Shown here piece after piece: positions 6,626 to 53,416 of a stretch of 64,000 nt of DNA. The translations under genes and the position numbers were made by a program. Source of the DNA: Ceratodon purpureus (lineage: Eukaryota; Streptophyta; Bryopsida; Pseudoditrichales; Ditrichaceae); the NCBI GenBank assembly GCA_014871385.1, contig CM026432.1, positions 9,044,825 through 9,108,824 of the forward strand. Direction: 5' to 3'. A model generated the notes under the pieces. That model was not told the origin of the DNA. It did no database searches and saw only the letters and a program-made list of their open reading frames with translations. How positions within the stretch are numbered: the stretch's first letter is position 1; each line of letters begins with the position of its first letter.

Positions 6626-7073
6626 GTGCTCGAAATCCACCCGGGATCAGGAACCGCACTCTAGAAAACTGCAAGGGGTACCGTGATCCGCACAGAAAGT
6701 TGGGTGGGAGCGGCAAAAATGTGGCCTGACGGTGAATCAGTCAGAGATGGCGCACTTTGAGGACGGTTTTTGAGCACCCACGGACCCGTTCACAGGCTTA
6801 GGGTGTGCGTTACAGGGGCATGGGTGTGGCCACGATTATGGCTGCGTTTGAGTGTAATTGGCGGCAATTTAAGTTGTAAAGATGTTTAATTCTGTTGGTT
6901 AAGCGGCGCTCCTAGAGTGGAGTGGGGTGGTGGCTTGGTTTAATTTCTAGATCAATCTGTGGGATTTGGTGCATGCAATGTGTCGAAACAAGTGTGCATT
7001 GTGTGTAGTTTATGTGCAAGGGATGGACAGTGCAAGGTGTGGGATCGGGTGAATTTTGAGAGTCAGCAGGGGC

Positions 7074-11108: not shown

Positions 11109-13588
11109 ATGGCGTTCAGTCCACAGCTTAGCAGCGAGGATCTCTTATTAGGAAGTGACGAAAATCCGCAATACAACAATGCCGTGCCTCATGCCGAGAG
11201 AATGTGCTACGGTTCTGATGAGGAGCAATCGAGCGGAGATGAACTTGTGGTGGGCGATCAAGAGCTGGATTACAGCCAGCTTGAGCGGGTAATTGCCGGG
11301 CCGGAGAGGAGGAGTGCAGGCAGAGTGCCGACGCCCAGGACCAGAGCGACTCAGGGGACTACCTTCGGCAGTCGTCATGGAAGGGTCCGATCACTGAACG
11401 GCGTGCGGCTCTTCACCGCACCATCGGAGTGCACAACAGCAGCCCCCAGATTTGGACCAGCAGAGCAGCGGATTCGACGGGGAGTGATGCCGAGTGTGCC
11501 TGCAGGTGGAACAGCAGCTAAGCCCGCCGAAGACATAACTGCAGTCGGTTCGCAGGCACCATCATCAGCATTCCGTAGACCTATGCAGCACTCTTCGACG
11601 CACAGCCCGCCCCCCCTAGTAGACTCGCAGCCGCAAACTCGCAGACCTCGCATGGCACAGAGAACTGGGAAATAGACAAACGCTCAGTTGCGGGATGCAC
11701 AGGCTGCTGTAGACGGAGGTATGAGCATGAAGAAGGCTTTAGAAATGTATCACATACCTTACACATCTTTTCGTGAATGGTGTTATGGCATGAGATGTAG
11801 TAGAAAGAGGGGGCCACCTGCAGTTTTGAGTGAAACTCAGGAAAAACTACTTGTGGACTACTGTATACGCATGTGTGAGATGGGGCAAGGACTAACACCT
11901 ACTTGCTCTCAAACTGGAAGTATATGACATAACAAAGGATAGAGTCACCCCATTCCGCGATGGCATTCCAAGTGGTGGTTGGATGCCGTGGTGGCGGCAT
12001 CGCCACCCAAAGCTTTCACTGCGTGTGTCTCATGCTCTGGAGACCGCACGCGCACGGGGCCTATGTACACTCCCTCGTGCCTGACCAAAGAGAGTGGCTC
12101 AGTGTCTTGGTCTGCATAAATGCAAGTGGAGTGAGTATCCCTTCTTTCTATGTTTTTAAAGGCAGACGGTTCAGACAAAATTACATTGAGAGATGTGAGC
12201 CCGGGGCAACGATGGCAATGCAACCCCGGGCTTGGATGACGACATACCTCTTTAGTGCGTGGTTGTCACACTTTATTGAAAGTGTACGTAGCATAGGTGG
12301 AATTTTAGTTGAGAAGAGGCACCTCATGATACTTGATGGACACGATTCACATTGCACACTAGATGTCGTCCTCGAGGCCCGTGCTGCAGGCTTGGACATG
12401 ATCACACTTCCCGCGCATACGTCTCACGCCCTACAACCACTAGATGTTAGTGTGTTTAAATCATTCAAGCAGAACTTTAGAAGTTACAGAGACTTCTGGA
12501 CATCTCGAAATTTGATGCAGCCGGCAACGAAATCAACATTGGCTCACTGGGTGCATCTTGCTCTGCGAAAAGCGTTGACAAAGGAGAATATATGCAGTGG
12601 ATTCAAAGCGACAGGCATATACCCACTCAACATTGCGGCAGTGAATTCGTACCTTGGTCTTGCCGAAATCTTCCAAACTGCCGAGGCTGCACCAGCCGCT
12701 CCTGACCTGCTAATGGACGACAAGCTCCCGGAACCTGCAGGCAATGACAATCCAAATGTAAGGAAACTCATTAGAGTTGTGCACAGTCAATGTTATAATT
12801 TTTTGGTTCTCTGTGTATGCGAGGAATGAAGTAAGGCATGATCTCACCATCATTTTTTATTTTTTTTTATACAAATTGACATCTGTTCTAAAAGACAGCA
12901 CGTGAGGTTTCTTTTTCGGACTTGATGAATTGCGGATGGTTTGCTTGGAGTGGACTGCATCATGCTCCTTGGTAACGAGCATGCTCTGCTCCAACAGACA
13001 GCACCTGAATCTAACGCGCTTTTTCTCTAACGATCAGGTTGTTCCCTGCGACCTCGTATCTGTTCACACACCGAACGATCAGATCGAAGAAGACGAGCAT
13101 CACAGTACACAGGAGGACGGGAGTGATGAGGGTCTGGGGACAAGCGTACAAGGCGAGGAGGCGCAGCTCGTGATGGAAGGCGAATTCGAGGAGGTGCCCA
13201 ATTCGAGCGCATCCCATTTCTTCGTAGCTCCCGACCCTGCAGACAGGGAGAGGGAGCCCTAGAAATCGGCACGATTGATAACGACGACGGCGAACCTCAC
13301 TCCATTACCAGGTTTCTCACACTCCCAACCATTGCAGCCCGAGCCAGTTCAAAAAAGAGAGATCCCCTCCTAGACTTCACGACATCCAAGATTCTCACGT
13401 CCGACGAGTATACCGCGGCGGTACAGCGACTCAATGAAGCGAAGGAGTTAGCAGCGCGAGAGAAAGAGAGGATACGTACGGAGAAGGAGTCGACACGACA
13501 ACGGAAGGGTGCCGAAAAGGAGGCCCGGGCTGCTGCGCTAGCCGAAGCGCGAGGTCGTCTACGTGAAGAGCGAGAGGAGGCAGCCTAA
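11109..13588 (+). pseudogene. Second Tigger/pogo-type transposase, inactivated
   Basis: The ATG at 11109 opens a Ser/Arg-rich N-terminus, then meets TAG at 11673 just before the pipsqueak helix (TNAQLRDAQAAVDGGMSMKK), where the first copy has Trp. The CENP-B-type segment follows (WMPWWRHRHPKLSLRVSHAL, allowing frame changes near 11905). The reading then jumps from ARGLC straight to VHSLVPDQREWLSV. The intervening 65-70 residues, which in the first copy carry the first catalytic Asp (NCDESG), are gone. The rest of the core is open (LMILDGHDSHCTLDV, LQPLDVSVFKSFKQNF). A GT at 12757 may start an intron before the acidic segment at 13038-13262; another frame change near 13255 leads to the coiled-coil tail ending in TAA at 13586-13588. 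It cannot encode an active transposase. Confidence 0.8.
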
Positions 13589-24936: not shown

Positions 24937-27900
24937 ATGAAACAGAGTGGAACTGAAGGAAATCATAACGCTTCAGCAGGTCCATCTCCTAGTCGTGGAA
25001 AAAAGGTACTTATACTTGAGTCCTTCGATCCTTGTCATACATTTGGAACATGACAGTTTCTGCAGACGTTTTCCTCACATGGCTGAGCATATTTTGTGTT
25101 GCTACAGTTGTGTGATGGGGTGTACTCCCTTTACGAACCGGAAGGACAGCCGGAAGTGGAGATAGTCTTTATTCATGGGCTCCAGTCGGATGATCCCAAG
25201 GATGCATGCAACGATGCATATTGGACAACATGGCTGGCCAGAGATGGGTCTCAGGATAATTGTTGGCCACAGACGTGGTTAGCTGCTGTTTACCCAAAGG
25301 CGAGGGTTCTTTCCATATCATATGATGCCAGCCGTGCTTTGAAATCTACCTCATCAGGGGCCATGGATTTAAACCCATTTGGAGAGACTTTGGTTCAGGA
25401 GATGGTGTTTAGTGGCGTTGACATCGGCCAACATGGTTGCCCAGTGGTATTTGTATGCCACTGTCTTGGAGGTCTAATTGCTAAGCAAATTGTAGTTTTG
25501 GGTCATGAACGATTCAAGGGAGACAAGAGGATTGAGAAATTGCTGAAAAATTTGAAGGCATTTGTTTTTTATGCGACACCGCATGGGGGATCAAAATTGG
25601 TGAAGATGAATCCTGATCTCGCACGATTGAACAACACATTTGAAGCCATCCAGCGCAAAGTGTACAACAACAAGTGCAAGTTCCGAGTTGTCGCAGAGGC
25701 TCATGAAACATCCTCTGTAAGTTGGGCTGAACATGGTTATTCTTGGATGCATGAGCACTGATCTGAATGTTAGACCTCAACATTGTATTTTATTGTTTTG
25801 AATACTTACATACTATGTGTGACTGTGTGCAGAAATGGTTCTCTAGCTCGATGATTGTCGAGGAGCATTCTGTCAGATATGCTGGGTTCGATCGCGTCAT
25901 TCATGTAGCAGCCGATCACTTCAATATCTGTAAGCCTGAGACTGACAGGAGCACAAGCTTCTTACATTTGACTGGATGTATTGAGGAGGTTGTGACCGAG
26001 TATCAATCCAACCAAGACAAGATTTGGGGTCTTCCAAGTCTTGTTGTGGGTGTCGATGCCAAGTTGGTAGAGCTGCGAGAGAAGTTGAAGGAAAGGCCTA
26101 TTGTCGGTTTGGTTGGAATGGGGGGTGTGGGCAAGACCACTCTGAGCAAAGCCTTGTTCAACACAGATTGGGGGAATTATGACAAGTGTTGTTGTCTGGA
26201 GGATGTGAAATCTCACAGCAATATAGTTGATTTTCAGAAGCAACTTCTTCGAGAGCTGTGTGATGAGAGATGGAATGAGAATGAAGATCCGAAGGATTAT
26301 CTGCGAAAGATCAGACAATGTATACAGACCAAGAAGGTTCTAGTTGTGATCGATGATGTTGGGACAGAAAAGAATCTGAAGGCCTTGCAGGTGGAAGCAT
26401 TTCAGCATGGATGCAGTGGAAGCAGGCTCATTGTCACATGCCGCAATAAGGCAATCTTATCAGATTATATGTTGGAAGGGGACAAGATTGAGGTGGATGT
26501 GTTGGACAACGACGAATCCATGGAGCTATTTCGGCATTATGCTTTCCATGCATTTAATGCTGCATATGAAATTGGAAGTGAGGAGAGGGAGAAATTTGAA
26601 CATGAAGCTGTGAATATTATTCACGCGTGTGGTGGTTTACCTTTGAGTCTAGAAGTTATTGGACAACATTTACGCAAACGAAATCATCTTCTTGGAGAAG
26701 AGCGTTTGGATGTGTGGAAAGAAGCATTGAAGAGATTGATGGAAGCTATATCTTTGGAGGATGATGATGAGAAGCTTTGGTCAACATTGAAGATTAGCTA
26801 TGATGACTTGAAGCCTTTTGTAAAAGGCTTTTTCCTAGATTTTGCATGCATTTTGTGTGATGCAAAAAACTTAAAATTGACTACTGTTGTAAGAATTTGG
26901 GACAATCGTGGAGGACTTCAGACTCTTATTGATAGTTCACTCATCAAAGTTGCCAAGCTAAATTCAAAACTTTCTATATTCGAAAAAAATGGACTTGTGA
27001 TGCATGATCAACTTCGAGACATGGGGCGGTGGATTGTAAGAGAGTTGGCTCATAAAGATGTGCATAAACATATCAAACACATGTGGGAAAAAGATGTTGT
27101 GAAGAAGTTTTTTGAAGATGAAGAGGTAAGGCATATTTTTCTTTTCACAATGTGTAATTTTTATTTGATTGTTTTAAGAAAATGTTGATTGATGATTGTA
27201 ATTTGAGTTTGATATTTGCCTAATGCTCACAAATTATAAAAATGTGGTGGTTGTAGGAATCAAGTATATTGGAAGGCTTGTCTATGAAGAATATGGAAGG
27301 ACTGAAGGTTCATAAATCACACATATTACAAGTGTTGATGAACATGAATTCTTCAAAGAAACATAGTCATCATTATGCTAATTTGAGGTTGTTAAATTTA
27401 TCTTGTAACAGCATAAATGTTGTGAAAATTGTATTGAGAACATGTGGAATCCACCCCCAAAACTTAAGATGGCTTTCCTTGAATACGACACCAATAAGGA
27501 AGAACCATTTAAGGATATTGAATGCAAACTTCAAGGCATTGTGTGTTTTACACTTGAGAAATTGTGACCAATTGGTTGAACTCCCATCGTCAATTGGTGA
27601 TTTATCCTCTTTGAAGGAACTCGATCTAGCCTGGAGTTGTAGTCTGAGGAGTCTACCAGAATCCATAGGATTGAAGTTGGGAAACCTCCAAGTATTGATC
27701 CTCAGTAAATGTTACAGAATGAGGGAACTTCCAGAGTCAATGTCTAATTTGGTGCAGCTCTTGGAACTTCATCTCGATGGGTGTATGGAACTGAAGAGAT
27801 TGCCATCTGGGTTGGGCAATTTGAAACTTCTCAAAGTGCTCAATCTCGGGATGTGTGAGAGTCTGGAAGTGATTCCTGCGGGAGTGGGGCAGATGCTGAA

Positions 27901-28795
27901 ACTGGAGACTCTTTATCTGAGTGGGTGTCGTAGTTTGCACACCATGTGCGAGTTTGATACTAAAATGCCCCATCTCCACACTCTCGACCTCCATGGCTGT
28001 GAGGAATTGAGAAGCTTCAAGTCGTTGGGCAATTTACATCGCCTTCGATTCCTGGATCTTGGAAAGTGTTCTGAGTTGTACATGCCCGACCTGGCAGAGA
28101 GTGTGGGTCAGCTTCATGATTTACAATTCCTCGATCTCGAGAGATGTGAGAGCTTGGAAGAAGAGGTGGCAGAGGCGCTGAGGGAGGGGCATCTTCACAC
28201 GGATCACCTGGAACGTCTCATGTTTACGATCATCCCCGAGACTGCTCTCCCTTCGTGTCCTCGGCTCAAGTATCTCCGGCTTGGCTATGGTACGTCTGGG
28301 GAGGTGACGAAGGAGCTTTCGAATGCTTTCAGTGAGTCGCTTGGCAATTTGGTGCAATTGCATGAGCTCCATATGAGAGGAGTAGCATCTGTCCCCGAGT
28401 ATGTGGGTAATCTGACTCAGCTGAAAGAGCTCAGTGTGGAGCGGTCGGGGAGGAACCCTCTTTCAGATGCGTTGAGGAATCTAGTGGGATTACAAATTCT
28501 CTGTGTTACAGGGTCGAGGTGCAGAAAATTGCCGGAGTGGCTCGGTCGTCTGTCTCAGCTGCGGACTTTCACTTTGGATGAATGCGAGAAGTTGGAGCGT
28601 CTCCCGGAGTCTCTTGGATTGCTGACTCAACTGCGATCATTGAAATTGGGTTGCAAGAAGCTGGAGGGTATCCCCGACTCTGTTCTTGGGCTGACTCAAC
28701 TAACAATACTGAATATTCGTAAGAGTACCAGATTGACTTTGAAGGAGGAGGTTCGACATGCCTTGACAGAACGTGGTTGCACAATTTTTAGTTGA
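24937..28795 (+). CDS. Alpha/beta-hydrolase-NB-ARC-LRR immune receptor (HNL-type NLR)
   Basis: Exons 24937-25005, 25108-25716, 25833-27125 and 27257-28795 join in phase to 1169 aa. Residues 24-260 form a SERAC1/DUF676-like hydrolase: IVFIHGLQSDD, a nucleophile elbow CHCLGG with Cys142 where Ser is usual, ATPHGGSK, and a likely catalytic His255 in ADHFNICKP. The NB-ARC follows: P-loop GMGGVGKTT (321-329), kinase-2 VLVVIDDVG (395-403), GSRLIVTCRN, GGLPLSLEVIG (493-503), and MHD (616-618). From about residue 690 there are leucine-rich repeats of the form LxxLxxLxLxxCxxLxxLP, to the end. Such receptors bind ADP/ATP and act in pathogen sensing inside the cell. The architecture is known from bryophytes. 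All motifs look intact. A short upstream exon at 23312 may add seven residues. Confidence 0.93.
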
Positions 28796-39283: not shown

Positions 39284-41434
39284 GCTGATCTGTAACTAGA
39301 TACCGGTTCTCCCCGTGCATTGGTCCATGATGAACTTGATCAGTATTCGTGATTCATCCATTGCAAAAAAAAATTAAAAAAATATTCATTCTCATTTTGC
39401 ACAAGGTAGTAGCAACTGTTTCAGTCCCTGTTTCCAAGAAATAAAATATTATAAAAAAATCAAAAAAATCAAAAATCAAAAGTGGTCTTGTTGTGTCCAG
39501 GGATGAACTTGATCAATGTTTATGGGGTGGAGTGAACTTGACTGATCTGCTTTTTCGGTGGATTGGAGCTTGGAGTGATCGAACTTGACCACTGTTCTTG
39601 GGCGGAGAGAATTTTGGACAATATTTTAAAGCATAAAATGGGTTGAATTTTCCACTCAATAATGAGGCTCTTGGCCATATACGGTACTAAAATATTGTGG
39701 TATAAGGAATGGGAACTATGATATTAGGGAGATGTATATTAGTTAATGGGTAGTGAAGTTTGGTGTGATAGAGTTAATGGCCTTTGGAATGGCATGTTAT
39801 GTGTGGTGTTTTTGAGTGGAGAAGAATTAGTCAAAAGTTGTTGTGGACTTCTTAAATTGAGTCAAATGGAAAGTGTGGGTTTTTATGATTGGAAGGGATT
39901 TTCAAAAAATTGGATATTTGGGTATTAAGGATAATTCGAGACGAAGTGGACAAGGAATGTTAAATTTGTATCCTACAAATTAGAAAATGTAGAAGAATAT
40001 ACTTTTGATATTGTATTTTGAGTTTTTGCAAAGGTCTTTGTATGCCATGTCACTAACCTCACATACTGAAAATTATATCCAAAAATGAAATAAATAGTGT
40101 TTAGTTTTTTAACCCCCAATTGACCATAAGTGTTCGAATAGGTTCTTTGAGATTTTGGCATGTCCTTACAATGTCAAATTTGAATGTGAATTTTTGAATT
40201 TAGGTAGAAATAAGGAATTGTAAGAGCTTAGTAATGATTCAATTTTTCTAAAATAGCATAGGAAAAAGTATTCATGGTGCCCAAAGTTGTTTTTCCACTT
40301 GTTGGATAGTTCCAAATGTTTTACAGTTTTACTACAATCCTCAACTACCTTCATGGTTTTTTATACAAGTAACTAACATGGCCTTGAGATTCTCATAAAA
40401 AAATCATTTATAGCAAAGAAATTTCATTCCATTAAGATTCAAAAGCTTCTTTTCTCTTTTTGGTCAAGATACAAAAATATCATTTTTATTGTCATATAAA
40501 AGACATAGACTTTTTTTTCTTTTTTAATATATATTTTTTTATAATTTTTTATCTACTTCAAGTATAGACATAAAACTTTCTCTTGATCATTTGGGTTTGT
40601 ATTCTAAAAAGATATCAATTATTAAAAACAAAATGATTATTAGCAATAATATGAACCCATGTGTCTTGGGCAATTATTTCCACAATGCTACATCTCTTTG
40701 TTATCTCTAATATTTTGTGTACATGAAAACCAACGTCATTAATGCTATATTAACCCCTAAAGTTCTTTAACTAAGTTTCATCAAAAAACGCTTTGGAATT
40801 GCTATTTCCAGTGTAAAAACCATAAATGACTAAAAATCATTATTTTCTAATTCAAACTATAAGATCTTCAATAAGATTATTGTAGTAAATAACTCAATAA
40901 TACAAATTTTGACCAGGTCAACACACTCTAATTTTTTTTTTCCTTAGGTTTTTTGCATTATGAATTTTGGGGGTTTCTGCATGACAAAGACGACTAAGTT
41001 AGCTAATTGTATTAAAAAAATTACTCACAGAGTCACAAAAGACAAGTATGGCGCATTCAAAATAATATTTTTATTAAATTAAATATAAAAGAATGATAAT
41101 TCATATCTCTTTCCTAGAAATTCCATTATGCTATAAAGTTTCAATCCAAACAGTCAAAGTAAAGATTGATGTTCATCTCTACGTTCATTATCCTTTGTAT
41201 AGTGGCCATTGGATTAGTGAATAGAATGAACCAACACTATATTCACGTAAGCCCCTTCAGACCGAAATTCTTCTTCTTTTTGATGTCCGTCCTTTGAGTG
41301 CAAAAAAGGAAAAAACTAAAAAAAACAAATTTTCTAACTTTTATGAAGGAAAGAAGAAGGTTTTTTAATACATTGCCCAAAACGGTGAGAAAACTTTGAT
41401 ATTTTATGGAGTGAACACTTAGTACCAAAAGAGG
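39284..41434. other. AT-rich intergenic stretch
   Basis: No supported gene; short frames only. Confidence 0.45.
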
Positions 41435-41972
<538 letters not shown>

Positions 41973-41973
<1 letters not shown>

Positions 41974-41986
41974 CTTTTGCAGCTTG
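41973..41986. repeat. Left terminal inverted repeat of the insert
   Basis: CCTTTTGCAGCTTG, the exact complement of 52884-52897. Confidence 0.85.
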
Positions 41987-42976
41987 GTTGCAGCAGGTAG
42001 AGCAGGTCCACTTGCGGTATTTGGGGTACCCAGTGCAGTCTGATCGAGATTTATGTGGGTATACTTGCTCTTCTGACGATGAGAATTTTCCAAGCTGAGG
42101 CCGGCGAGGTCTGTAAGAAATCCACCGAAGTTTGAAGTGAATCGGACTCATTCTGAATTAGTAGTGATTTTTAGAGTGCGAGGGGGTGCACTGCGGTGCA
42201 AGTTTTCGAATACGTAGGGATTCGTGTGGTGGACGGTGTAGGCCGGAGGGTTCGACATAGGATAAATGGTTCCTTCGCGGCAGTCCTGGGTAGTCCTTTG
42301 CGGCGGATGTGACGCGCGCGAGGGAGTGACCCGGTGGCTGCCTTCACCGGGGCAGCCGGTTCCCTTCAGTCACGGAAGGTTTACGGTGCGCAAGTGCTCC
42401 ACCTGCGGCCGCGTGGACGAATGGGGAGCGTGTGCTGACGACGGCCGTGATGAAGGACCCAGTCCCGGGACACGGGACTTGTAACCGTCTCCACATTGTT
42501 TCCAAGTCTGCAGACAAGTTCACTGGACGATGTGAAGGATATGCGCACTTTGTGATTCAAATCGACGGGGTCCATGTGCGCGGCAAAATTCAGGCCCACA
42601 GATAGATGCATACGTCGGAGTATAACTCACATAAAGAAGAAATTGTGTACATATGTGAAGAGAATATGCATTACAAAAAGTGTTGTTCTGAAATTGTTTG
42701 ACAAGTAGTGTAGACAAAATTTCCTGGTAACATCATGTTCCTCTACTGAGCCGGGGCAAATGTTCGCTGCCCTTCTAGGCGGTGCCGGAAATTAGTACTT
42801 CAGACAGCTATTTACAAACTTTACCTTAGAACTACTACCCAGAAACGAAAAGACTAACAGTGGACGAGTAATCGTGCGGTGCTTCGAGGCTGTGACGGGA
42901 AATACTACTTGGGAAACCTATTTACAAAGTAAACCTATTTACAAACTACAGAAGTGAGAAGAACCACATCCCCGAT
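41987..42976. other. Non-coding left part of the insert
   Basis: Mixed GC-rich sequence with no frame I recognise. Relative to the minus-strand genes it is the 3' end of the element. Confidence 0.4.
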
Positions 42977-44265
42977 TCAGGGATCGACGGTCACCACATA
43001 TTCAACGGACCCAAACTTTGTGAATGTCACCTTGTCGCCAACTCGCAGATAGTTAGCATCAACGAAATGTGCCCAACCCTTCGTGAAACAACAGAATGTT
43101 TGCTTCCCGAAAGTGTAGGTGGAGGTCTTCACGCAGGAGGGAGCTACCGGGCCGCTGAGGGTGTACCAGACGTCCTTGAACCCGTCCTCGCCATGGATGC
43201 GCCAGTAGGCAGTGGAGACATCCTGCGGCACACACGTAGAGACATTGTTATGCAGGGTCTAACTTGCGAATCCATGCATTTCCCCTCCCACACCCCGCAG
43301 TCGTTTCACATCAATGATCAGGAATAAGTGAGTAGACAGCAGAAGTGTAAGCGAAAATTGAAACATAGCCGGGTGGGGATGCACTTACGAGTCTGCTGGA
43401 CTCCTGTTTCAGGGTGTGCGTTTTGCGGAGTACCTTCGAGAACCATGGGCGCACACCTGGAGTGACTTCTGGTGCCTTCTGTTGGGACGTCGCAACACGG
43501 TGGCTGTTGTCCACTTCGGGGACTTCCGGGGAGGGGCGCTTGGGTTCAGCGTCCATGCAAGCCTTGGAGTGCTGCTTCAGGTTCATGGGTAAGGGGACGC
43601 TGCGGAGGGGGGTCTTGACGCCGTCGGTGGCACGTGCACCACGGGGAAGCTCCATCGCCGAGTGCGCTGCCTTTCCTTTCTGGAGGACACCATGGTGCAC
43701 ACTTGGGGAGTAGCCGGGGCCGGAGCGGCGGTGGATGTCAACCACGAGACATCGGTCGTCCACCACCTCGAAGGTCAGGAAGGCGCCGACACCGAGGGCC
43801 AGATCCTCCACGAACTTGGACTACCCGGACCCGGTGCTGATGGCGGACACTCCCCCGAAATGGGTTTGGTCGAGAAGCTGGAATTGAACGGGCCATTCCC
43901 TCCGCGTCCAGGACTCCGGAATCACCAGGGAGCAACTCGATTCGCGTGGCCAACCATGCTTCGCCGAGAAGGTCGCAGGGATCTCCTGCATTTGCGACCC
44001 ACGACAATGCATTAGCGGTTGAAGGGTCTCTGCGGATATCCAGCTGCATTCACGGACTACCATGTCTTAGAGGGGCAAGAGGAAACCATACCAAGGGAGA
44101 GTCAACCGCTGTGGAGGTGATGGTCAGGGCAAAGTAACGAGCATGGACCTCGTCCAGCTCGCGCAAAATCGCCATATCGCTAACGGAGTCTACCATTGTG
44201 CCTGTGCGGTTCGAGAGGAGTACCAAATCTGAAGCACCACGGAATCTGACGAAGAAGAGACGGGC
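42977..44265 (-). pseudogene. Two-B3-domain (REM-like) transcription factor gene with an in-frame stop
   Basis: Exons 44265-44092, 43985-43389 and 43222-42977 join in phase with clear GT-AG signals. The first B3 domain runs HARYFALTITSTAVDSPL, EIPATFSAKHGW, LVIPESWTRREWPVQFQLL, SKFVEDLALGVGAFLTFEVV. The second runs RPWFSKVLRKTHTLKQESSR, DVSTAYWRI, GWAHFVDANYLRVGDKVTFT. B3 domains are plant-type DNA-binding domains, so the product should be nuclear. Within the first domain TAG stands just before SKFVEDL, where B3 proteins usually have Trp (GW-x-x-FV), consistent with TGG to TAG. The rest stays open, so the damage is recent or the annotation is missing an event. The exon at 44918-44772 may belong to the same gene; the stretch between is unresolved. 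It lies inside the piggyBac-type insert, downstream of the transposase and on the same strand. Confidence 0.72.
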
Positions 44266-44771
44266 CTGCGTCCACAATTCAGGTGATCAGGAACGCGCTA
44301 CGGGTCTAAGAGCGAGAGCTCCGAACATACACACCGCTGGCCTCTACAGCAGTGCATCCACCAATGAAAGTGAAGACTCCATAACAGACAGCAAGGTTCA
44401 CATACATTGAGGGCTGGCAAGCCCTCCCATGTCACTGGGATTTTCAATGATGAGGACGAGATCTTGGAGGACCAAAATCCAGCCCATCGGGTCAAGTCGA
44501 CCATCATAGCAGACGGAGTTACCCGGCGGAGCATTGATGAGCGAGTGGATATGATTACAGAGCAATCAATGCGTACGGCTGGGGGAGGGGGTCACCATCA
44601 GCCACAAACAGGGTCCAATGGAGATTCATAGATTACAGAATTTGGACAACTAGGGCGGAGAACACCCGTCTGGAGACTTGGAACTCAAGCAACAAAGTTC
44701 TGTCACTCTGAACTGTGGAAGACATCGTTCTATAGGAAACAGTGCCCTACAAGCGGAACAGTGCACGTTAC

Positions 44772-44918
44772 CTGTGTCGGCAGTACAGACCAATGAACCA
44801 GGTAGTGGACGGCAAGCAAAGCACTCCCTTTGCGAATGTAGTCTCCAAGCGCAGGGTAGTACAGCTTGAGCAATTTCTCCTGAACAGGGTCTGAGAGGGA
44901 AGCCAAGTCGCCGCACAT
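44772..44918 (-). CDS. Unassigned coding exon in the insert
   Basis: ATG at 44918 opens 49 codons (CGDLASLSDPVQEKLLKLYY, then LLAVHYLVHWSVLPTQ) ending at a donor CAG-GTAACG; an acceptor (AACAG) lies just upstream. It looks like a real exon but I do not recognise it. Between it and the B3 exons another open run (GRLDPMGWILVLQDLVLIIE, ending at a GTATGTG donor, 44410-44520) also looks coding, though I could not join it in frame. They may be upstream exons of the B3 gene. Confidence 0.35.
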
Positions 44919-45317
44919 CCCCTGTTCCAAAACAACTTCGGAAAGTCAGGTGCAGGAGGGGGCCACCGAAAGCGGACAAAACTTGAACGTCTGACTTCAC
45001 TTACTAAGGTTGGGGCGCGGGAGTGTCTACCTCCCAGTAGACGGCGAACATTGCAGGGGAATGCATGCCTTGGAATTCGGGGCAGCTCAATTCCAGGCTC
45101 GGGGTACAGAATATGTTTAAGTGCAACTACAGATTCTATGAAAGGCTACGTACGGGGAAGAAGTAGTGTAGAGCTTAGTGACGACAAGCTACTGTGATGG
45201 AGCATTACAACACTGTGGATAACTAACTATTTGGGGACGACATGTACTGGTGAGGGGGAACAACGTCTCGAAGAAGCACTTTCTGGACTCGAGAGCAGTG
45301 ACCGCCCCTGCTTGAAG

Positions 45318-45752
45318 TCAATGGCCCAGACAGTTGTCGAGGAAGTCAGCCGTGTCCACCTCGGGAGAGAGAGCGCCTTCGTCATCGACATCTTCTTCGT
45401 CCGATTCGGAGGCAGCGGGTATGACGGATGGGGGCCGCCCTACCGTACCTGGCGATGAACACCGCCCCGTCGATGCCGAGTTCATAGGAGGTGGAGGTGG
45501 CGGTGGAGCACGCTCGGACCCACCGATGTGAACGACGCCGGTCAATGAAGCCACTGCCTCGTATTGGGCCGTGCAGGCTGGGGACCAATCCCAGACAAAA
45601 TCATCGTCAAGCAGATGCGTAACTGCTCCGTAGCATGGCATTTCCACATCCCAATTCACTTGTTCGAACAGCTCCACACGGCGAAGCCAGTCACGAACCT
45701 CTTCTACAGTCCCTGGACGATGCGATGAGATGGTGTCAAAGCGACGCTTCAT
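45318..45752 (-). CDS. Hypothetical acidic protein (144 aa) in the insert
   Basis: ATG at 45752 to TGA at 45318. The N-terminal half looks folded (TVEEVRDWLRRVELFEQVNW, HLLDDDFVWDWSPACTAQYE). A Pro run and an acidic Ser/Glu/Asp-rich tail follow (SESDEEDVDDEGALSPEVD). No family recognised. It lies between the small Cys-rich gene and the B3 gene on the same strand. The tail could be a transcription-activation-like or chaperone-type acidic region, but that is a guess. It may have further exons. Confidence 0.45.
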   Translation of the reverse strand: MKRRFDTISSHRPGTVEEVRDWLRRVELFEQVNWDVEMPCYGAVTHLLDDDFVWDWSPACTAQYEAVASLTGVVHIGGSERAPPPPPPPMNSASTGRCSSPGTVGRPPSVIPAASESDEEDVDDEGALSPEVDTADFLDNCLGH

Positions 45753-46138
45753 TGCACCCGATTAGAGAAGAACGGCAACGGAGAACCAACATTGATATAT
45801 GAAAAAGAACATGCAAGCAGGGGTTTAGAGGGGAGAAGTGAAAGACGCCTCACCTGGTGGTGAGCGGCTACGGGTTGGAGGGGTCATTGTCGTCTATGGT
45901 CTGAGGTACCTAACGACGGAGTGGGGTGTGACAGGGCATTTGTGTTGCAGCTACGGATGCGTCTTACAGTGGGGAGGGGGTGCAGAAGGGTCTCTACGCG
46001 GCTGCAAGAGCCCACTCCAGCGGCAGCAGGGGCCACCCTGCAACAAACCAGTCACCGTCAAGAATGTGAGAACTAGGCGAAGGACATATACGCATTTAAC
46101 AATGGAAGGCTGAATCTCGTGGGGAAAAGGCGGGGAGA

Positions 46139-46740
46139 TCAAAGGGGGATCCACTCCGTATGGAGAGACGCCAGGAGAGAGACTTCGTCCTCGTCCTCGG
46201 AAGTGTTCTCAGAGGGGACAGGCGCAGCAGTCACCATCGGCTGTATAACTCGCTGCAGACCAATCCCAGCACCGTGCATTGTCTTCCGCAGACAGTAGTG
46301 GGCCACGAATTTTCTGGAGACAATGAATTAAAGTGAGAACTAGAAGCATAGAAGTACTTGAACCACATTAAATTACGCTATCAGTATGTACACGAGGGCA
46401 GAGTAGGCTTCATACCCGATAATGACACCCGTACTAAAATGGCACGACTTAGCTACAAGAGGAAAGAGTGTACACGCAGTCTCGGTTTTCAACATATTCA
46501 GTTCATGCACAAAACCGACCTCTCGCAGATTCTGCAGCAACCAGTTGCATGATCTCCTGCAGAGTAAGCCGACCGTGTTGAACCGTTCTTCTCCAGCAGT
46601 GATTCTCCACTCCACAGCAGTTCGGTCGCGGTGAACCTGACGCTCACCTTATCCTGACATGGCCACGCAAACACACACTTCCCCGTCGCCGACATTCTTA
46701 CTTCCATAACCTGTTTTTCCACATTTCCAAAGTGAGGCAT
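46139..46740 (-). CDS. Small two-exon protein with a zinc-finger-like Cys cluster
   Basis: Exons 46740-46520 and 46313-46139 join in phase (donor GAGAG-GTCGGT, acceptor CTCCAG) to 131 aa. The junction reads ATGCCRICER|KFVAHYCLRKTMHG. This has the C-x2-C-x3-F-x5-L spacing of a C2H2 finger but lacks the first canonical His, so it is a degenerate or variant finger. The C-terminus is acidic (SENTSEDEDEV). The N-terminus has VRFTATELLWSGESLLEKNG. I do not recognise the protein. It follows the transposase gene directly on the same strand within the insert, so it may be an accessory protein of the element. Confidence 0.5.
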
Positions 46741-47154
46741 TTACATGGTCCAGCATTTACAAGCATAGGAGTGAGTCGTGTTGGTCCTGACAAAGAAGGT
46801 CTCAATGTTTTCTGGGATCGTCAAGCATGAGTTCAGCAAATAGAAACACAGAGTACAAAATTGTGGCCCAGAAACAGCGTTCTATAGTGCACAATCTCCG
46901 CACGCAGAAGTGCCTTCCGTCATGTGCATGCTCCGTTGTGGTCAAGCTGTCGTGAAATGCACTTCACTTGGACGTCGTCATCCTCTGTGGGGCAGTCTTC
47001 GATTAGAGGGACCGACGACGGAATGTACGCGACACCATCGGCTTCTTCTTCGAGTCCCCACCGTCGTCAAGTCCGGCACTCGCTCCATCCCAGCGCATGC
47101 GTGCGGCAGCACCCTGCGTCACCGTTCAGAGCATGCAGTGGGATTACTATGAAT

Positions 47155-50100
47155 TTAAAGAGCGGTAGCTGTACGCAAGAGTAAACGTTCGTGGTGTGCT
47201 TGATAACACGATTCTTGACACATCCATATACGTCCACAGCTCAGGCAGAACCATTTCTGCACACGCGAACACACTACACAGCGTCGCTTCAACGTAGAAC
47301 GAAAGAGCGTGTGGACAGCGGGGGGGCGACGCGCTCTGGGCTCAGGGGGTGCGCGCTGCCGTCGGCGGGCTTCTATGGCTTCCTGAGCCAGGTGAGTGCC
47401 TACGGCAATCTTGAAGGTCAGATGGGAAGTCAAAGGGAGGCCGAGTTCCTGAACTTCCTTTTTCCAAGTAACGTAGGAGTTCACCATGGTCTGATCCAGA
47501 ATAAGGTGGAATAATTTCACCCACCACTTGTGACAGCGGAGTTGTGAAGAGTAGTTCCGACGGAGCTGGTCAGTCACATCAACGCCGCGCATGAACTCGA
47601 CATATTGTCGGTGCATGGGGCATGATGGTACTATAACCTGTCCACGAAGTCCAGGAATTCTCCTCAGTACTTTACTGTTAGGCTCCCATGGAGAGGATGC
47701 GGTGCTGAGCAAGGTCACGATCTTCTTGTCTTGCCAGGAGACAACGCCCATCTGGCGGTGGACGTGCGTCCAAAGGATCATGGCACCCCGCACATCCTTT
47801 TCCGGTTTCCTATACAGGCCGGCGGGGAGATTTTTACTATACCGGCGTACAGTACCTGTGGCCCAAATCCCCTTACACATTAGCCAGTGGAACAGATTCA
47901 CGGAGACGAAGAAGTTATCAATCACCAGGCAGTGACCACGGTCCTCCAACCCCGCGACCATCCTCTCAATGACATGGTACCCCAAACCCTCCGGACCAGT
48001 CCCTGTCCCTTCTCCGAAGTATACCTCCATTCCAGTGACGAACCTGCTTTTTGAACTTGCAAGCAACCAAACTTTTATTCCGAATCTAATGGGTTTGTTT
48101 TTCATGAATTGTCTGATGAAGCAGTATCGGCCTTTGTAGGGGATCACACATTCATCAACTGTGATCTCTCTTTCAAGGTTATAGATGTCCTTCGAAACAG
48201 TGTTGAACATATCAACTAGCCATCTTGTCTTAGAGATTCTGTCGAACCCATGGGCTTCTACATCCCTGATTATAGTGTTGTTATCTACAAGGTGCAAACA
48301 TCGCAGAATAGCTTCCCACCTCTTCAATGTCATGATCGACGAAATGAGCGAGCAATATAAAAAAGGTTGGCTGCGCATCCAGTAGTGCCTCCTGCTAGGT
48401 AGTCGTTTACAACCCATCAAGATACAAATACCCATCCACCCCTTAATCTCGGCTCTACTCACGTCCTTCCAGTTCGTTCCCCCCTTTGTACGTGGTCCAC
48501 CATTCTCCCGAGGCGGCAATTCTGTTTTTGCGTACCTATTGGTTTCGGTAACTATCCGGTCAAGGCAAGCTTCAGTCCAATACAAATCGAACACGGCGTG
48601 GGGGAGAGGAACAGTCGAGGGTCTGGGAGACTTCAAACCTGGGGTTGGTCCCGTAAAATTATCACGGCTCCTCACGAAGTCGACGCTTGAGCAATTCCAG
48701 GAGCTTCTCCTGTAGTGATGAGCAAGCTGCTTCTTGTCCATGTGCACGGGTGTGAAGGACTGTGGAAGCATGCACCAACTCTCCAGGCCGTGCGTCTTGG
48801 GCGCATCGTCATCTACGATGTCTCCCTTTTCGAAGTCGGAATCCGATGTCTCTATAGTGTCCTCCCACTCTGGGATCCACTCTGCATCGCTGGAGTCCAC
48901 GGACAGGTGCGGCAAGCGAGGTCCGGCGGGAAACTGTCCAAGAATTCTGTTAGGGCAAAGCATATAGTGCGGTAGCCCAGAACTTACCTTTGGGAAAGTG
49001 GCTCGCGCTGTTGAATCTTGCGTGCCGTCGACCCCCTCAATGTCAGAGGGGGTGTCGTAGTCGGCGATTGGGACGCCCTCTGGATGGAGGGGGTGCATGC
49101 CAGTACCGATGTTCTCCGCCACATGCTCGGTTTGCCCTGGCCCGTCCCCACTAGGCCCCCCGCTGCTCCCCGCTCCAGCAGCATGACTTCCCGATGCAGA
49201 TGCCACCCCGAAGGCGCTTCCACTCAAGTGGACGGCTCCACTCCCTACAGCCGCCACCCCGCTTGCCAGAGCACCCAGCAGCGTCGCCGCAACATGTTCC
49301 GAAGATGCCACTCCGACCATAGGCCCCGATCCCGTTTGCTCACTCCCAGGGTACGATTCGAGGTTGTCGGGGAAGACCAGTGCAGGCTTCGGGCTGAAGC
49401 AGTGCTGGCGTTTCCACCATCCGTAACCGTGTCCTCCTTCAGACCCTTGAGCACGCACATGCGGACCATCTGCCACCCGGACGTTCTCTTCGAGCAGATG
49501 GATCTCCGAATGAGAACCTCCTAGGTCGCAGAGAACCATTCTTCTTCCAGAACCCGTATGCGTACCCTCCCCTATGACATCACCTTGTGTCCAAGAAGGC
49601 GTGTCGCCTGTATGAAATGACGCCTCAGAGAGGAACCTATTTGGGACAAGCACCGCCCAGCCAGCCCTCCGGCAACTCCAGTCCACATATGTTCCGATGA
49701 ACCGCTCTGGCATATTCCCCACCGCCACGAATAGGGGCCTCTCCAGAGCTCCGCCGGGATGTGTCGCTACGAATCCACTCCCCCTAATAATGGGCGTGGA
49801 CGTCCTCCACGCATCGTCACGGAAGACAGAGTCCCAGAGATTAATATTGCATGTGTCCATGCTGCCAACGGAGTGCAGCGACTCTGGCGCATGCATGTCG
49901 TCGAATGCGTCATAACCTCCCCCAAAATCCGCGAGCACTTCCGCGATGGCCTCGTCGTTGAGCCTTTGGCGCTCGTACTCTGCAATCTGCGCCGACAAAG
50001 CCCGAGTTGTCACACCTTCAGTGGGGTTCGGGGCCACGTCAGTGGGGGGCTGCCACTTGTGCGGTTTCCTCGCTTTGACCTTGTGAGCCTTCCCTTTCTC

Positions 50101-51418
50101 CTCCCGAGTCGCTCTCTTCGGGCGCTTCGTAAGTACACCTACAGAAATTAACCATTCCAAGACAGTATGTAAACAGTAGATAAAATCAACGCAAAAATAC
50201 ATTCACCATGGAAACGCCACATCGGTGGAATAGAAAGTGGACCCCGTGATTCAAAGGAATTACAGAGTGATTGGTGCATGTATCACTAGATACTCTGCCT
50301 CATATTATCCAGGCTGGGGACGAGTCTTTGCTCGGACTCGAGAACAGTGCGACAAATGCAAGAACAGCGGGTATAACTTCGAAGTGGCCTAGACAGTGGG
50401 GGAGGGTTTCTTACGTTGGGAGGCCGGTGTAATTTCGGGGGGCGGAGGTCCGAGCTCGTTTAGGCCCTCGCTCTCCGGCATGGGCGTCTGCTGCGTGCAG
50501 AAGACGAACCCCTCTGGTGTTGCGGTCGCCTTCTTCGCCCTCGGCTTTCTTTGTGTCGGTGGCTTCCCTCCTCCAACCTCTGCTGGTTGCTTCCGCGCTC
50601 TCGGCTTCCGAGTCCGTTTCATTGATGGGGTCTGGAACTGTGTGAGGTCCAATGACGCTTCCCCTGGCAAACCATCGGCGTTGCCCTCCACTGGGGGAGG
50701 AAGAACCACCTTCACACCGTTTGCAGCACCTCGTAAGTATGTCCCCGAAATCCCAATGAAAAGGAAGGATCTTCAAACAGAAGCAAACTCCCAGCATAAC
50801 ATCCATATTCAAAGGCCAATGGTTTGTAATTACCTTCTTTGCCCTGGACTGCCGCTGCCGCTTGGGTTTCGGAGCGGGGTCTACATTCTCTTTCCCACCC
50901 ACGGGGTCTGTTTCCCCGTTGCCCTCCACTGGGGGAGGAAGAACCACCTTCACACCGTTTGCAGCACCTCGTAAGTATGTCCCCGAAATCCCTATGAAAA
51001 GGAAGGATCTTCAAACAGAAGCAAACTCCCAGCATAACATCCATATTCAAAGGCCAATGGTTTGTAATTACCTTCTTTGCCCTGGACTGCCGCTGCCGCT
51101 TGGGTTTCGGAGCGGGGTCTACATTCTCTTTCCCACCCACGGGGTCTGTTTCCCCTGGCACAACCTTTTCCTGCACCATAGCCAGCACGAGAACGACCGG
51201 TCCCTGCGTTAGTATTGTGCTTCGTTGATTACATCTCCTCATCATCTGTCAAATTCACAGTGGAGAGAAACAAGCGCCACAGTAATGCAGAATTGCTGGG
51301 AGACACTGAATTCTTAAGTTTGTCAGTGCACCTTCCTCTGCCGTGTCCTCCTCTGCTTGGGGGATGGATTTTCGGTCTCGGGCGCTGTGAGGGGGACTGT
51401 TACTTCCGCTCCCGCCAT
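47155..51418 (-). CDS. PiggyBac-type transposase (five exons)
   Basis: Exons 51418-51332, 51203-51072, 50947-50834, 50709-50415 and 50138-47155 join in phase to 1203 aa. The last exon alone is an open frame of 1015 codons from 50202, but its start overlaps a pyrimidine tract and acceptor, so I prefer the spliced start. The N-terminal 210 residues are Lys/Arg-rich (PKPKRQRQSRAKK, KPRAKKATATPEG). The DDE_Tnp_1_7 core follows, with TVDECVIPYKGR, LVIDNFFVSVNLF and RGVDVTDQLRRNY. The aspartates are 683, 762 and 875 of the 1015-codon frame, spaced much like D268/D346/D447 of insect piggyBac. A C-terminal Cys-rich finger (CVVCSRVQKWFCLSCGRIWM) matches the piggyBac end-binding domain. A Gly/Ala/Ser-rich linker lies at 290-355. 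No stop or frameshift was seen, so it may be active. Confidence 0.9.
50680..51155. repeat. 238-bp tandem duplication containing an exon
   Basis: The block from 50680 repeats from 50918 with about one mismatch visible. Each copy includes the splice sites and most of the exon reading GETDPVGGKENVDP and the basic tail. It therefore adds one extra exon (50947-50834) to the transposase N-terminus while keeping the reading frame. Confidence 0.92.
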
Positions 51419-51790
51419 GGTTTCCTACACACGCACGCGAAATGAGTGCACGAGACGAAAATTCCCACGAAAACCATACTTCAAAGAAGGCAGCATTACA
51501 ATGTTACATTTCCGCAGGTAACACAGACAAAGCAAGAGAGTATGGAGGAACTTCACACATTCTCGAAGAAGGAGGAGCTAATTTCAAAGCACTTCATGCA
51601 CAAATCAACATTTTGAATAAGACACCCAATCTACATGAATTGCGCAGAGGACCATGTCACGACCACCTGCGGAGACGAAGATTGCTTCAATCCAGAAATG
51701 CAAGGTACAATACAGTCTACATATGACATCGTCATGGACGAGGACGCGGGATTGAACATCGCACCTAAACCCTACTCTGTAGTTTAAACC

Positions 51791-52240
51791 CTAAAACACT
51801 GCAATGCAGAATTCGGTGCTCGAAGGCTCACCTGGGTTCCAATCGCAGGTTGCGAGTTTTGCTCGACCTGCATTAGGAGCGGGTGCTCCGAGTGCCTCAC
51901 CATCCTCGCGAGCCGTTTCATCCCTTCGAGGCTGCGTCGTCGGGAATATATGATCGCGCAGAATTGATGTCACTATCTCCGGAAACCTCTTCCGTTCGCA
52001 CCACCCAAGGATTCGAGCAGAATGTCTGTACCAAAGATATCGACACCGTTCCTGGACTCCGTATTGGCCTCGGCGATTCCAGCCGCTGGGTCGTGGCTGC
52101 GCGAGTAGTGTCGTCGCGTCGAGCAACTGAACCGCGCGCAAGGCCGCTTCCTTTGAAACCCCCTCCCCTCTGAACCACTTCTCCAAATTCGCCTCCAATG
52201 CAAGGCGCTCCTCACTCTTCGACCCGGAACTGAATCCCAT
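51791..52240 (-). CDS. Hypothetical protein (149 aa) at the 5' end of the insert
   Basis: ATG at 52240 to TAG at 51791. It contains a helical segment (SEERLALEANLEKWFRG, VSKEAALRAVQLLDATTLL) and a basic aromatic part (RCRYLWYRHSARILGWCERK). No family recognised. It lies upstream of the transposase, same strand, near the right end of the insert. It could be an accessory DNA-binding protein or an upstream exon of the transposase transcript. Confidence 0.4.
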   Translation of the reverse strand: MGFSSGSKSEERLALEANLEKWFRGEGVSKEAALRAVQLLDATTLLAQPRPSGWNRRGQYGVQERCRYLWYRHSARILGWCERKRFPEIVTSILRDHIFPTTQPRRDETAREDGEALGAPAPNAGRAKLATCDWNPGEPSSTEFCIAVF

Positions 52241-52883
52241 GTATACTTGCAAAACCACACGCACCCTAAACTTGCAATTCTCAAGACAATTGAACTACAG
52301 AGTGTGCTACGCGGTTGAAATATGTAACCTCCCGAACCCCTGTGTTGCGTCCCGCACTGAAATCCTAAATCCATTTCCCCCCTAAACCGAAATCCAGTAC
52401 TCCAGACGTGGGAGTCACAATCGTCTTTGCCGCCCCCAAACATCCTAATCGCCGCCGCTCAAGCAGTCCGGAACAACATGAACAATAGAAAAAGAACTCC
52501 TTGAAGCTGCAAAACAGGAGTGGAGAAGGTGGAACGCGAAGAATCCAATCGTGCTCCCCATCCTCACACGCGACTGTCCCTCCAACGAGAACGACCTGAC
52601 TAGCCGGTGACCAACGGCCACCGCAAGTTACGCAGCGTCAGTACCAGACGCCGCCCCCGCAGTACGTCGCAACCTACGCTCAGCCCTACCATACAACGGA
52701 ATACCCGGAAACCCAACCATTCTGACTCATAGAAATCCACCGGAGGGTCCAAAAATTAATCTGAAAATTTGGTAATTTGCTCCATGCCAGTGCCCAGATT
52801 TATGTAGTTCCGAGCAAAGTCCAATTCTCACAATCAAAACCGGAAACGCAGGCAATTCATCACCCATAGGCCAAATCGGACTG
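52241..52883. other. Non-coding right end of the insert
   Basis: No frame recognised. Relative to the minus-strand genes this is the likely promoter side of the element. Confidence 0.4.
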
Positions 52884-52897
52884 CAAGCTGCAAAAGG
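52884..52897. repeat. Right terminal inverted repeat of the insert
   Basis: CAAGCTGCAAAAGG, exact complement of the left end at 41973-41986. Confidence 0.85.
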
Positions 52898-53050
52898 TTT
52901 TTTTTTGGAAAATCTCAAAGATGAAAACATTAAGTATTTCTAGAAATAACATCAAAGGTAATAGATGTATTTAGCATGGCTGCCTGAATTGCCCACTGAA
53001 TAGAAAATTTCATTTCAGGTACCATGCCTATTTTTTTGAATGTCTAAATG

Positions 53051-53143
<93 letters not shown>

Positions 53144-53416
53144 ATATTCCCTCAAAGTCTTTGTTACGGCAAATATTTACAAAAAGTTTCAAAAAATACC
53201 AATTTAAATTGAAGTCACAAGTACATGTCCAATTTCTAAAGAAGCCCTTGGAGGGCTATTTGTCCTTTAAGAGGCCAAGTTTGTCGCGGCGCTAACAATT
53301 ACCTACAAACACCCAAGTTCCACACGGTAGTCTAGTCTAAGGTGCGCCTTGCGTATCTTGGGGTGCAACTATCCTGTGGCACTTAGTCACTTAGTAAGAG
53401 TCACTAAGTCTAACCC
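52898..53416. repeat. Right copy of the host direct repeat flanking the insert
   Basis: Same sequence and orientation as 41435-41973 apart from a shorter, slightly interrupted AT tract (about 53056-53148). It continues into sequence (CATGTGACCTCAACC) that is not present after the left copy. Confidence 0.93.

Follow-up and report, generated by a model that had tools for sequence, protein, structure and literature searches.

The 64,000-nucleotide stretch of Ceratodon purpureus DNA analysed here (assembly GCA_014871385.1, contig CM026432.1, positions 9,044,825 to 9,108,824 of the forward strand; called the window) contains a piggyBac-type element of about 10.9 kb which carries, besides its transposase, a gene for a protein with two B3 domains (the tandem-B3 gene), a small gene called MKR and a conserved exon called MGFS. 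This unit has moved as a whole. We consider it quite probable that the unit is a piggyBac transposon with several genes, of the autonomous type to judge by its gene content, and that the B3 protein acts as an element-encoded accessory DNA-binding factor. The B3 gene is a standing accessory gene and not a one-off capture, because it recurs at related transposases, its domains form two tight clades, and distant pairs give the signature of purifying selection. A population of elements has in common a layout with a plant-type B3 gene for DNA binding and with two conserved protein families that Pfam does not name, and this layout offers a concrete case for testing how transposons use a host-type regulator domain.

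Copies and movement of the element

The piggyBac transposase recognised in the first-pass annotation, which was made from the sequence of the window, is confirmed as an open frame that matches PF13843 (DDE_Tnp_1_7) in Pfam with an E-value of 5.8e-69. Among solved structures in the PDB its matches are piggyBat (E 6.9e-32) and piggyBac (E 4.1e-22). In the alignment with the 6x67 chain, ITVDE, LVIDN and GVDVTDQ stand opposite the piggyBac stretches that hold D268, D346 and D447. They are the residues named as catalytic in piggyBac (PMC7351741). The C-terminus, as read from the translation, is rich in cysteine and histidine (47191-47280). A search for relatives of the transposase in viral contigs confirmed none.

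The ends of the element had been described as exact inverted repeats of 14 bp. The exact pair stands: CCTTTTGCAGCTTG matches the window exactly at two places, namely at 41973-41986 and, as the reverse complement, at 52884-52897, whereas with up to three mismatches allowed it is met 10 times against 8.35 expected. The length of 14 bp does not stand, as the full terminal inverted repeat (TIR) is 16 bp long, CCCCTTTTGCAGCTTG, as it stands in the C4 copy described below, and the right end of the window copy is without the last two G of it. The GC content is 53% in the element and 27-29% in the 1-kb flanks. The conserved genes of the window element all lie on one strand, as had been claimed, which is the minus strand, and from the right end to the left their order is MGFS exon, exons with basic repeats, transposase, MKR and tandem-B3 gene.

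The genome searched was an assembly of 362.5 Mb in 151 contigs, the biggest contig among the loci being 110.5 Mb long; the labels C1, C4, C6, C10, C11 and C12 used below denote contigs. The U and V chromosomes of C. purpureus each exceed 100 Mb (PMC8000587). Searching with each end retrieved a second full-length copy on C4 (C4a, a near-twin of the window copy). It is 10,929 bp long and has TTAA immediately outside both CCCCTTTTGCAGCTTG ends; its alignment with the window copy covers 10,925 of 10,925 bases and contains 65 differences. Because this full copy has TTAA at both sides, the 10.9 kb moved as a single unit. Three relatives, on C11 (10,495 bp), C4 (C4b, 10,202 bp) and C10 (6,783 bp), are bounded as TTAA-CCCCTTTTGCAG...CTGCAAAAGGGG-TTAA, have 67-74% DNA identity to the window copy in the conserved parts and show the same gene order. 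The C10 element has lost its 5' third, with MGFS and the transposase N-terminus; B3 and MKR are kept and a partial transposase is traceable by DNA. The TTAA that marks piggyBac insertions is found on both sides of C4a, C4b, C10 and C11. Together with the B3 gene present in all ten large TIR pairs described below, these copies bear out the earlier idea that the whole 10.9 kb, B3 gene included, moves as a unit.

A separate observation concerns the 110-Mb contig C6, where two inverted copies of at least 8,768 bp each, 99.92% identical and about 17 kb apart, contain a decayed B3/MKR element each (C6:106150000-106185000; L052-L055). The pair forms a palindrome, perhaps on a sex chromosome.

Recurrence of the gene set in the genome

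The searches list their best-scoring candidates, and the element counts are for this reason lower bounds. From the transposase search the best 45 of 1,205 candidates were scored, which are the loci nearest to the window transposase; with the 99% copy left out, their identity to it is 55-73%. Within 8 kb, 12 of these loci have both MKR and B3, 9 MKR alone, 19 B3 alone and 5 neither. When the sequence is read directly, two of the last five hold a B3 pair on the transposase strand, and at the C12 locus the second B3 domain proves to be split across two frames. Since direct reading added two to the 31 found by search, B3 stands near 33 of the 45 transposase loci, downstream on the same strand in 31 of these 33 (29 of 31 before direct reading). 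All 21 loci with MKR have it downstream of the transposase and on its strand, at a distance of 1.2-2.4 kb, and in all 12 loci holding both genes MKR is closer to the transposase than B3. When the 45 loci were placed at random, the mean of MKR co-occurrence was 0.27 and its maximum 3. A similar picture was obtained from the other end of the element: the best 150 of 298 MGFS candidates were scored, all of them matching; in 68 a B3 match follows downstream on the MGFS strand at up to 20 kb (median distance 8.4 kb), in one it lies upstream, and the random mean is 0.93.

The ends themselves provide an approach that starts from no gene. The pattern TTAACCCCTTTTGC, which is TTAA plus the end, has 62 exact matches in the genome and its reversed control one. 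The matches form 16 converging pairs within 20 kb, ten of 6.8-11.5 kb and six of 1.56-1.82 kb, and nine of the ten large pairs span 8.7-11.5 kb. B3 is present in every large pair (eight among the matches listed, two by direct reading), and among the matches listed the transposase is found in 8/10 and MKR in 4/10. Closer inverted ends around the transposase had been named at first pass as evidence that would speak against a unit; the eight large pairs for which a transposase is listed span 8.7-11.5 kb, and ends that enclose the transposase alone at a shorter distance were not seen among them, the search covering ends of unchanged sequence. The six small units (for example C1:24896001-24897684) contain no genes among the matches listed, and are probably non-autonomous relatives sharing the ends.

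The tandem-B3 gene was also used as the starting point, with 150 of 193 protein-query matches listed. The possibility that the added genes always occur without the transposase, likewise named at first pass as contrary evidence, is answered in part: of the 124 B3 loci listed, 68 or more are accompanied by an element part on the expected side, but 56 have none listed. On the unexpected side of the same 124 loci there are no transposase, no MKR and one MGFS match. A co-location test between the best 116 of 999 Pfam piggyBac candidates and the best 150 of 726 Pfam B3 candidates gave no pair within 12 kb. These two lists mostly miss the present transposase clade, and the test was redone with protein queries. 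The word cargo, used at first pass for the additional genes, is correct in that B3 and MKR are carried inside the element, but it is too weak, since both recur across the clade.

The window alone would have left room for a piggyBac element that stands beside, or is nested among, unrelated B3 genes, with inverted ends that match by accident. We give this explanation practically no weight, because it is contradicted by the exact TIR pair, by the full C4 copy with TTAA and by genome-wide co-occurrence far above that of random placement.

Ancestry, selection and role of the B3 protein

The B3 domains of 14 element-type loci were compared in a tree with those of 11 other B3 loci, drawn from the Pfam B3 list and assumed to be host genes. 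The first and the second domains of the element-type loci form one clade each (100/99), on long stems; L096, one of the 11 other loci, joins the second-domain clade weakly (88/76). Another listed element part accompanies 9 of the 14 loci. As the element-type domains form one clade each, the tree suits a single old acquisition of the tandem-B3 gene.

The ratio of nonsynonymous to synonymous substitution rates (dN/dS) between the window copy and C11 is 0.10 for MKR, 0.11 for the N part of the transposase, 0.15 for MGFS, 0.28 for the basic-repeat exons, 0.28 for the first B3 domain and 0.40 for the second. Among the pairs of the 14 B3 loci with a synonymous rate (dS) below 1.5, the median ratio is 0.33 for the first domain (8 of 91 pairs, maximum 0.70) and 0.35 for the second (6 of 91 pairs, maximum 0.42). 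Judged by these ratios, the element genes of distant copies are under purifying selection; close pairs, for which the ratios are given below, are little constrained.

For the function of the encoded proteins the following scheme can be considered. The transposase, of the DDD type, would cut and paste the unit at TTAA. The B3 protein would bind the element's own DNA and would most likely keep the element expressed against host silencing, in a manner comparable to VANC. MKR would be a small partner with an acidic tail. The VANDAL elements of Arabidopsis, to which VANC belongs, have a MuDR-type transposase. They resemble the moss element in being plant DNA transposons whose related members carry an additional gene, the product of which binds DNA sequence-specifically, and VANC binds short motifs and induces methylation loss in target elements (PMC5735166). 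The moss element differs in its PF13843 transposase and its B3 accessory protein, and target-motif arrays were not found here. Because no VANDAL-like arrays were found, the VANC-like scheme is carried by analogy.

Several observations weigh against a multi-gene transposon with its own B3 factor. The window copy is not flanked by TTAA. A two-B3-domain gene had been announced for it, and both stretches are indeed found by Pfam, but a TAG at 43821-43823 stands in frame inside the first domain; at this position the frame is open in the C4, C10 and C11 copies. C4b has stops in several genes, and C4b and both C6 copies are decayed. In two of the 31 transposase loci, both on C1, B3 is downstream but on the opposite strand. 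The 56 B3 loci without another element part among the matches listed include 5 of the 14 loci in the tree, and of the 116 best piggyBac matches in Pfam, which mostly belong to another clade, no more than 10 have a B3 locus within 15 kb. When the window copy is compared with C11, synonymous sites approach saturation in several genes and are saturated in the catalytic part. In close pairs, with few changes, dN/dS of the first B3 domain is 0.97 (window and C4) and 0.83 (C11 and C4b), and that of MKR is 0.81 (C11 and C4b). MKR and B3 distances across nine elements are weakly correlated (Mantel r 0.28, p 0.07); in view of this weak correlation strict joint descent of the two genes is not shown and exchange of modules is possible. 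Finally, in a crude motif test no 8-mer reached four occurrences in each of three elements, nor did known B3 motifs cluster at the element ends.

The counts behind the last statement are as follows, observed against expected for the window element, C11, C4b and C10. CATGCA occurs 16/6.3, 10/5.2, 9/5.0 and 3/3.0 times, an approximately twofold excess in three of the four, and is absent from the terminal 700-800 bp of all four; CACCTG occurs 9/8.2, 13/8.2, 13/7.8 and 6/4.8 times. Several 7-mers recur in all four elements, and the motif survey is taken as giving no clear signal.

Some of the above would be compatible with a host B3 gene that this one element captured by chance and that hitchhikes with it, in the manner of Pack-type elements. 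The B3 domain is one of plant transcription factors, matches to it are numerous in the genome (726 candidates, the best 150 scored), the window gene carries a stop and close copies show little constraint. Such a capture is nevertheless very improbable in view of the recurrence of B3 (33/45 transposase loci, 31/33 downstream on the same strand, and 10/10 large TIR pairs), the separation of element-type domains, in two clades, from the 11 other loci, and the dN/dS of 0.28-0.40 in distant pairs, while a recent single event is contradicted by transposases that are 27-45% different from that of the window. Pack-type elements, moreover, are without a transposase of their own and their captured pieces vary among copies, whereas the moss element has a transposase and recurrent B3 and MKR genes.

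If the B3 protein belongs to the element, it could alternatively act, similarly to TnpA of En/Spm or ORF1 of Harbinger, as a co-factor of transposition that binds terminal or subterminal DNA with the transposase instead of sustaining expression against silencing. Other plant DNA transposons have accessory DNA-binding proteins of the co-factor kind, and in the ten large TIR pairs the second B3 match ends about 0.9-1.3 kb from one element end. We regard this role, the main alternative, as less likely, as a shared cluster of B3-type motifs was not found in the terminal 700-800 bp and piggyBac transposases are known to work without a second protein.

In a wider scenario, a plant piggyBac lineage would have acquired a tandem-B3 regulator gene in a single ancient event. 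Its product would have become a DNA-binding protein specific to the element and in control of the element's chromatin and expression. With MKR and MGFS the elements would then constitute a multi-gene piggyBac class, and a good part of the moss B3 loci would be transposon genes. We see the chances of this scenario as evenly balanced. It raises the questions whether VANC-like anti-silencing was invented independently a second time, and how far transposons inflate B3 gene counts in such genomes.

PiggyBac elements have short inverted ends that begin with CC or CCC, are usually a few kb long and are described as transposase-only. The moss element resembles this superfamily in its short inverted ends starting with CCCC and in its DDE_Tnp_1_7 transposase, with D268, D346 and D447 aligned and with TTAA duplicated in other copies (PMC7351741). 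It differs in that the large moss elements bounded by TIR pairs are mostly 8.7-11.5 kb long (9 of 10), have a long N-terminal extension of the transposase, and carry MGFS, MKR and the tandem-B3 gene. Accessory second proteins are known from plant transposons, namely TnpA of En/Spm, MURB of MuDR and ORF1 of PIF/Harbinger. These proteins and their transposases are unrelated to those of the moss element, and we know of no B3 domain in such accessory proteins. Enlargement of a piggyBac-type element by many added genes is described for Teratorn, which differs from the 10.9-kb moss element in its size of 41-182 kb, its herpesvirus genes and its occurrence in fish (PMC6431247). Among the window frames scanned with Pfam no viral families, such as those of the herpesvirus gene set of Teratorn, were seen. 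KolobokP and the fungal TET/JBP transposons are also DNA transposons with an additional enzyme gene (PMC9587614, PMC12730594), but they belong to other superfamilies and have other accessory genes. A literature search over titles and abstract openings, of incomplete coverage, found no description of piggyBac elements with a B3 gene.

Gene content, flanks and neighbouring frames

The coordinates of the element, its genes and its flanks are collected in Table 1.

Table 1. Features of the window element and of its flanks, with positions counted from the first base of the window
Feature	Position	Strand	Remarks
Left copy of target duplication	41433..41973		541 bp; final CCC common with left end of element
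Whole element, window copy	41971..52897		10,927 bp (C4 copy 10,929 bp end to end)
Left TIR, CCCCTTTTGCAGCTTG	41971..41986	+	
Terminal stretch, probably non-coding	42266..42481		about 67-70% DNA identity kept in relatives
Tandem-B3 gene region	42977..44918	-	upstream exons uncertain; conserved stretch near 44111-44220
Second B3 domain	42977-43222	-	
Intron of tandem-B3 gene	43223-43388	-	
First B3 domain	~43720-43988	-	
MKR gene	45318..45752	-	144 aa; conserved domain of about 75 aa, acidic low-complexity tail, GRPPSV motif
"Cys-rich two-exon gene" of the first-pass annotation	46142..46740	-	probably not a gene
piggyBac transposase frame	47155..50202	-	open, 1015 codons
Three catalytic-aspartate stretches	48127-48165, 47902-47931, 47563-47589	-	within transposase frame
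Exons with basic repeats (PKPKRQRQSRAKK type)	50411..51418	-	kept in relatives; exon limits inferred
MGFS exon	51832..52240	-	conserved coding exon of about 136 aa near right end
Right TIR	52884..52897	-	two terminal G of 16-bp end absent
Right copy of target duplication	52896..53416		521 bp; initial GG common with right end of element

With its two exons joined and an X at the stop, the B3 gene matches the Pfam family in two stretches (E 2.5e-13; 50.2 bits, cut-off 30.1). The closest solved structures, RAV1 (E 0.12) and TEM1 (E 0.45), are weak matches. MKR is a protein family of its own, for which no Pfam family was found, the best match across 23 aligned rows having an E-value of 0.14. At 20 of 20 further loci the match begins at the first residue with MK, and in 5 of these 20 the tail holds a stop. 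The MGFS exon, for which 3/3 rows gave no Pfam match, may represent a gene of its own or may be where the transposase gene starts, as its first exon. Within the region of the basic-repeat exons there is a perfect tandem duplication of 238 bp (50679-51154), which probably predates the split of the window and C4 copies, since the C4 copy has it as well.

Two candidate genes were dropped. The frames of the small Cys-rich two-exon gene proposed at first pass exist, but in the genome they turned up nowhere except in the window copy and in the 99% twin on C4, where they carry a stop; they are for this reason not supported as a gene and are ruled out as conserved cargo. A plus-strand frame in the terminal stretch near the left end is conserved as DNA but was not kept as a gene because comparison of the window copy with relatives gives it a dN/dS of about 0.54-0.64.

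The flanks of the window copy are unusual. A direct repeat that was missed at first pass borders the element on both sides, and its edges fall on the element ends. Its two copies are identical except in a (TA)n tract, on the two sides of which 158 and 269 bases are compared. If the two flanks are joined around a single repeat copy, matches elsewhere in the genome span the left junction in 11 listed loci and in L043, and the right junction in 3/3 loci that match there. Because both junctions are continuous elsewhere, the repeat is duplicated target DNA. A reading of the direct repeats as the long terminal repeats of a retrotransposon was rejected for the same reason, the repeat being native target sequence continuous with its neighbours. 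The target site (41332-41900) lies inside dispersed repeats, and the left repeat has up to 970 candidate places genome-wide.

At its left side the window element adjoins CTAA, and at its right side the two terminal G are gone and the joint shares GG. The transposase may have joined one end at the near-TTAA site CTAA, while the other end could have been joined by repair about 541 bp upstream, which would leave a long target duplication. An assembly artefact, or crossing-over after this element had inserted twice at a distance of 541 bp, appears less plausible to us, if by no means negligible. The identity of the repeat copies outside (TA)n would fit an artefact or a very recent event, and two insertions followed by recombination would, on reasoning, yield an identical structure. 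However, an assembly error hardly explains that both repeat edges meet the element ends, other copies of the surrounding repeats run without a break across both junctions, and neither junction is TTAA, which two normal insertions would require.

Elsewhere in the window, a Pogo/Tigger-like transposase frame with DDE_1, Tc5-type helix-turn-helix and Psq domains in Pfam occupies 7053-8942 (+), and a frame that looks similar by translation follows downstream at 11933-12829 (+). At 25087-28795 (+) an alpha/beta-hydrolase-like frame (DUF676) is followed by an NB-ARC frame, both assigned by Pfam, and by a frame that looks leucine-rich in translation; this trio resembles the hydrolase, nucleotide-binding site and leucine-rich repeat (hydrolase-NBS-LRR) class of bryophytes.

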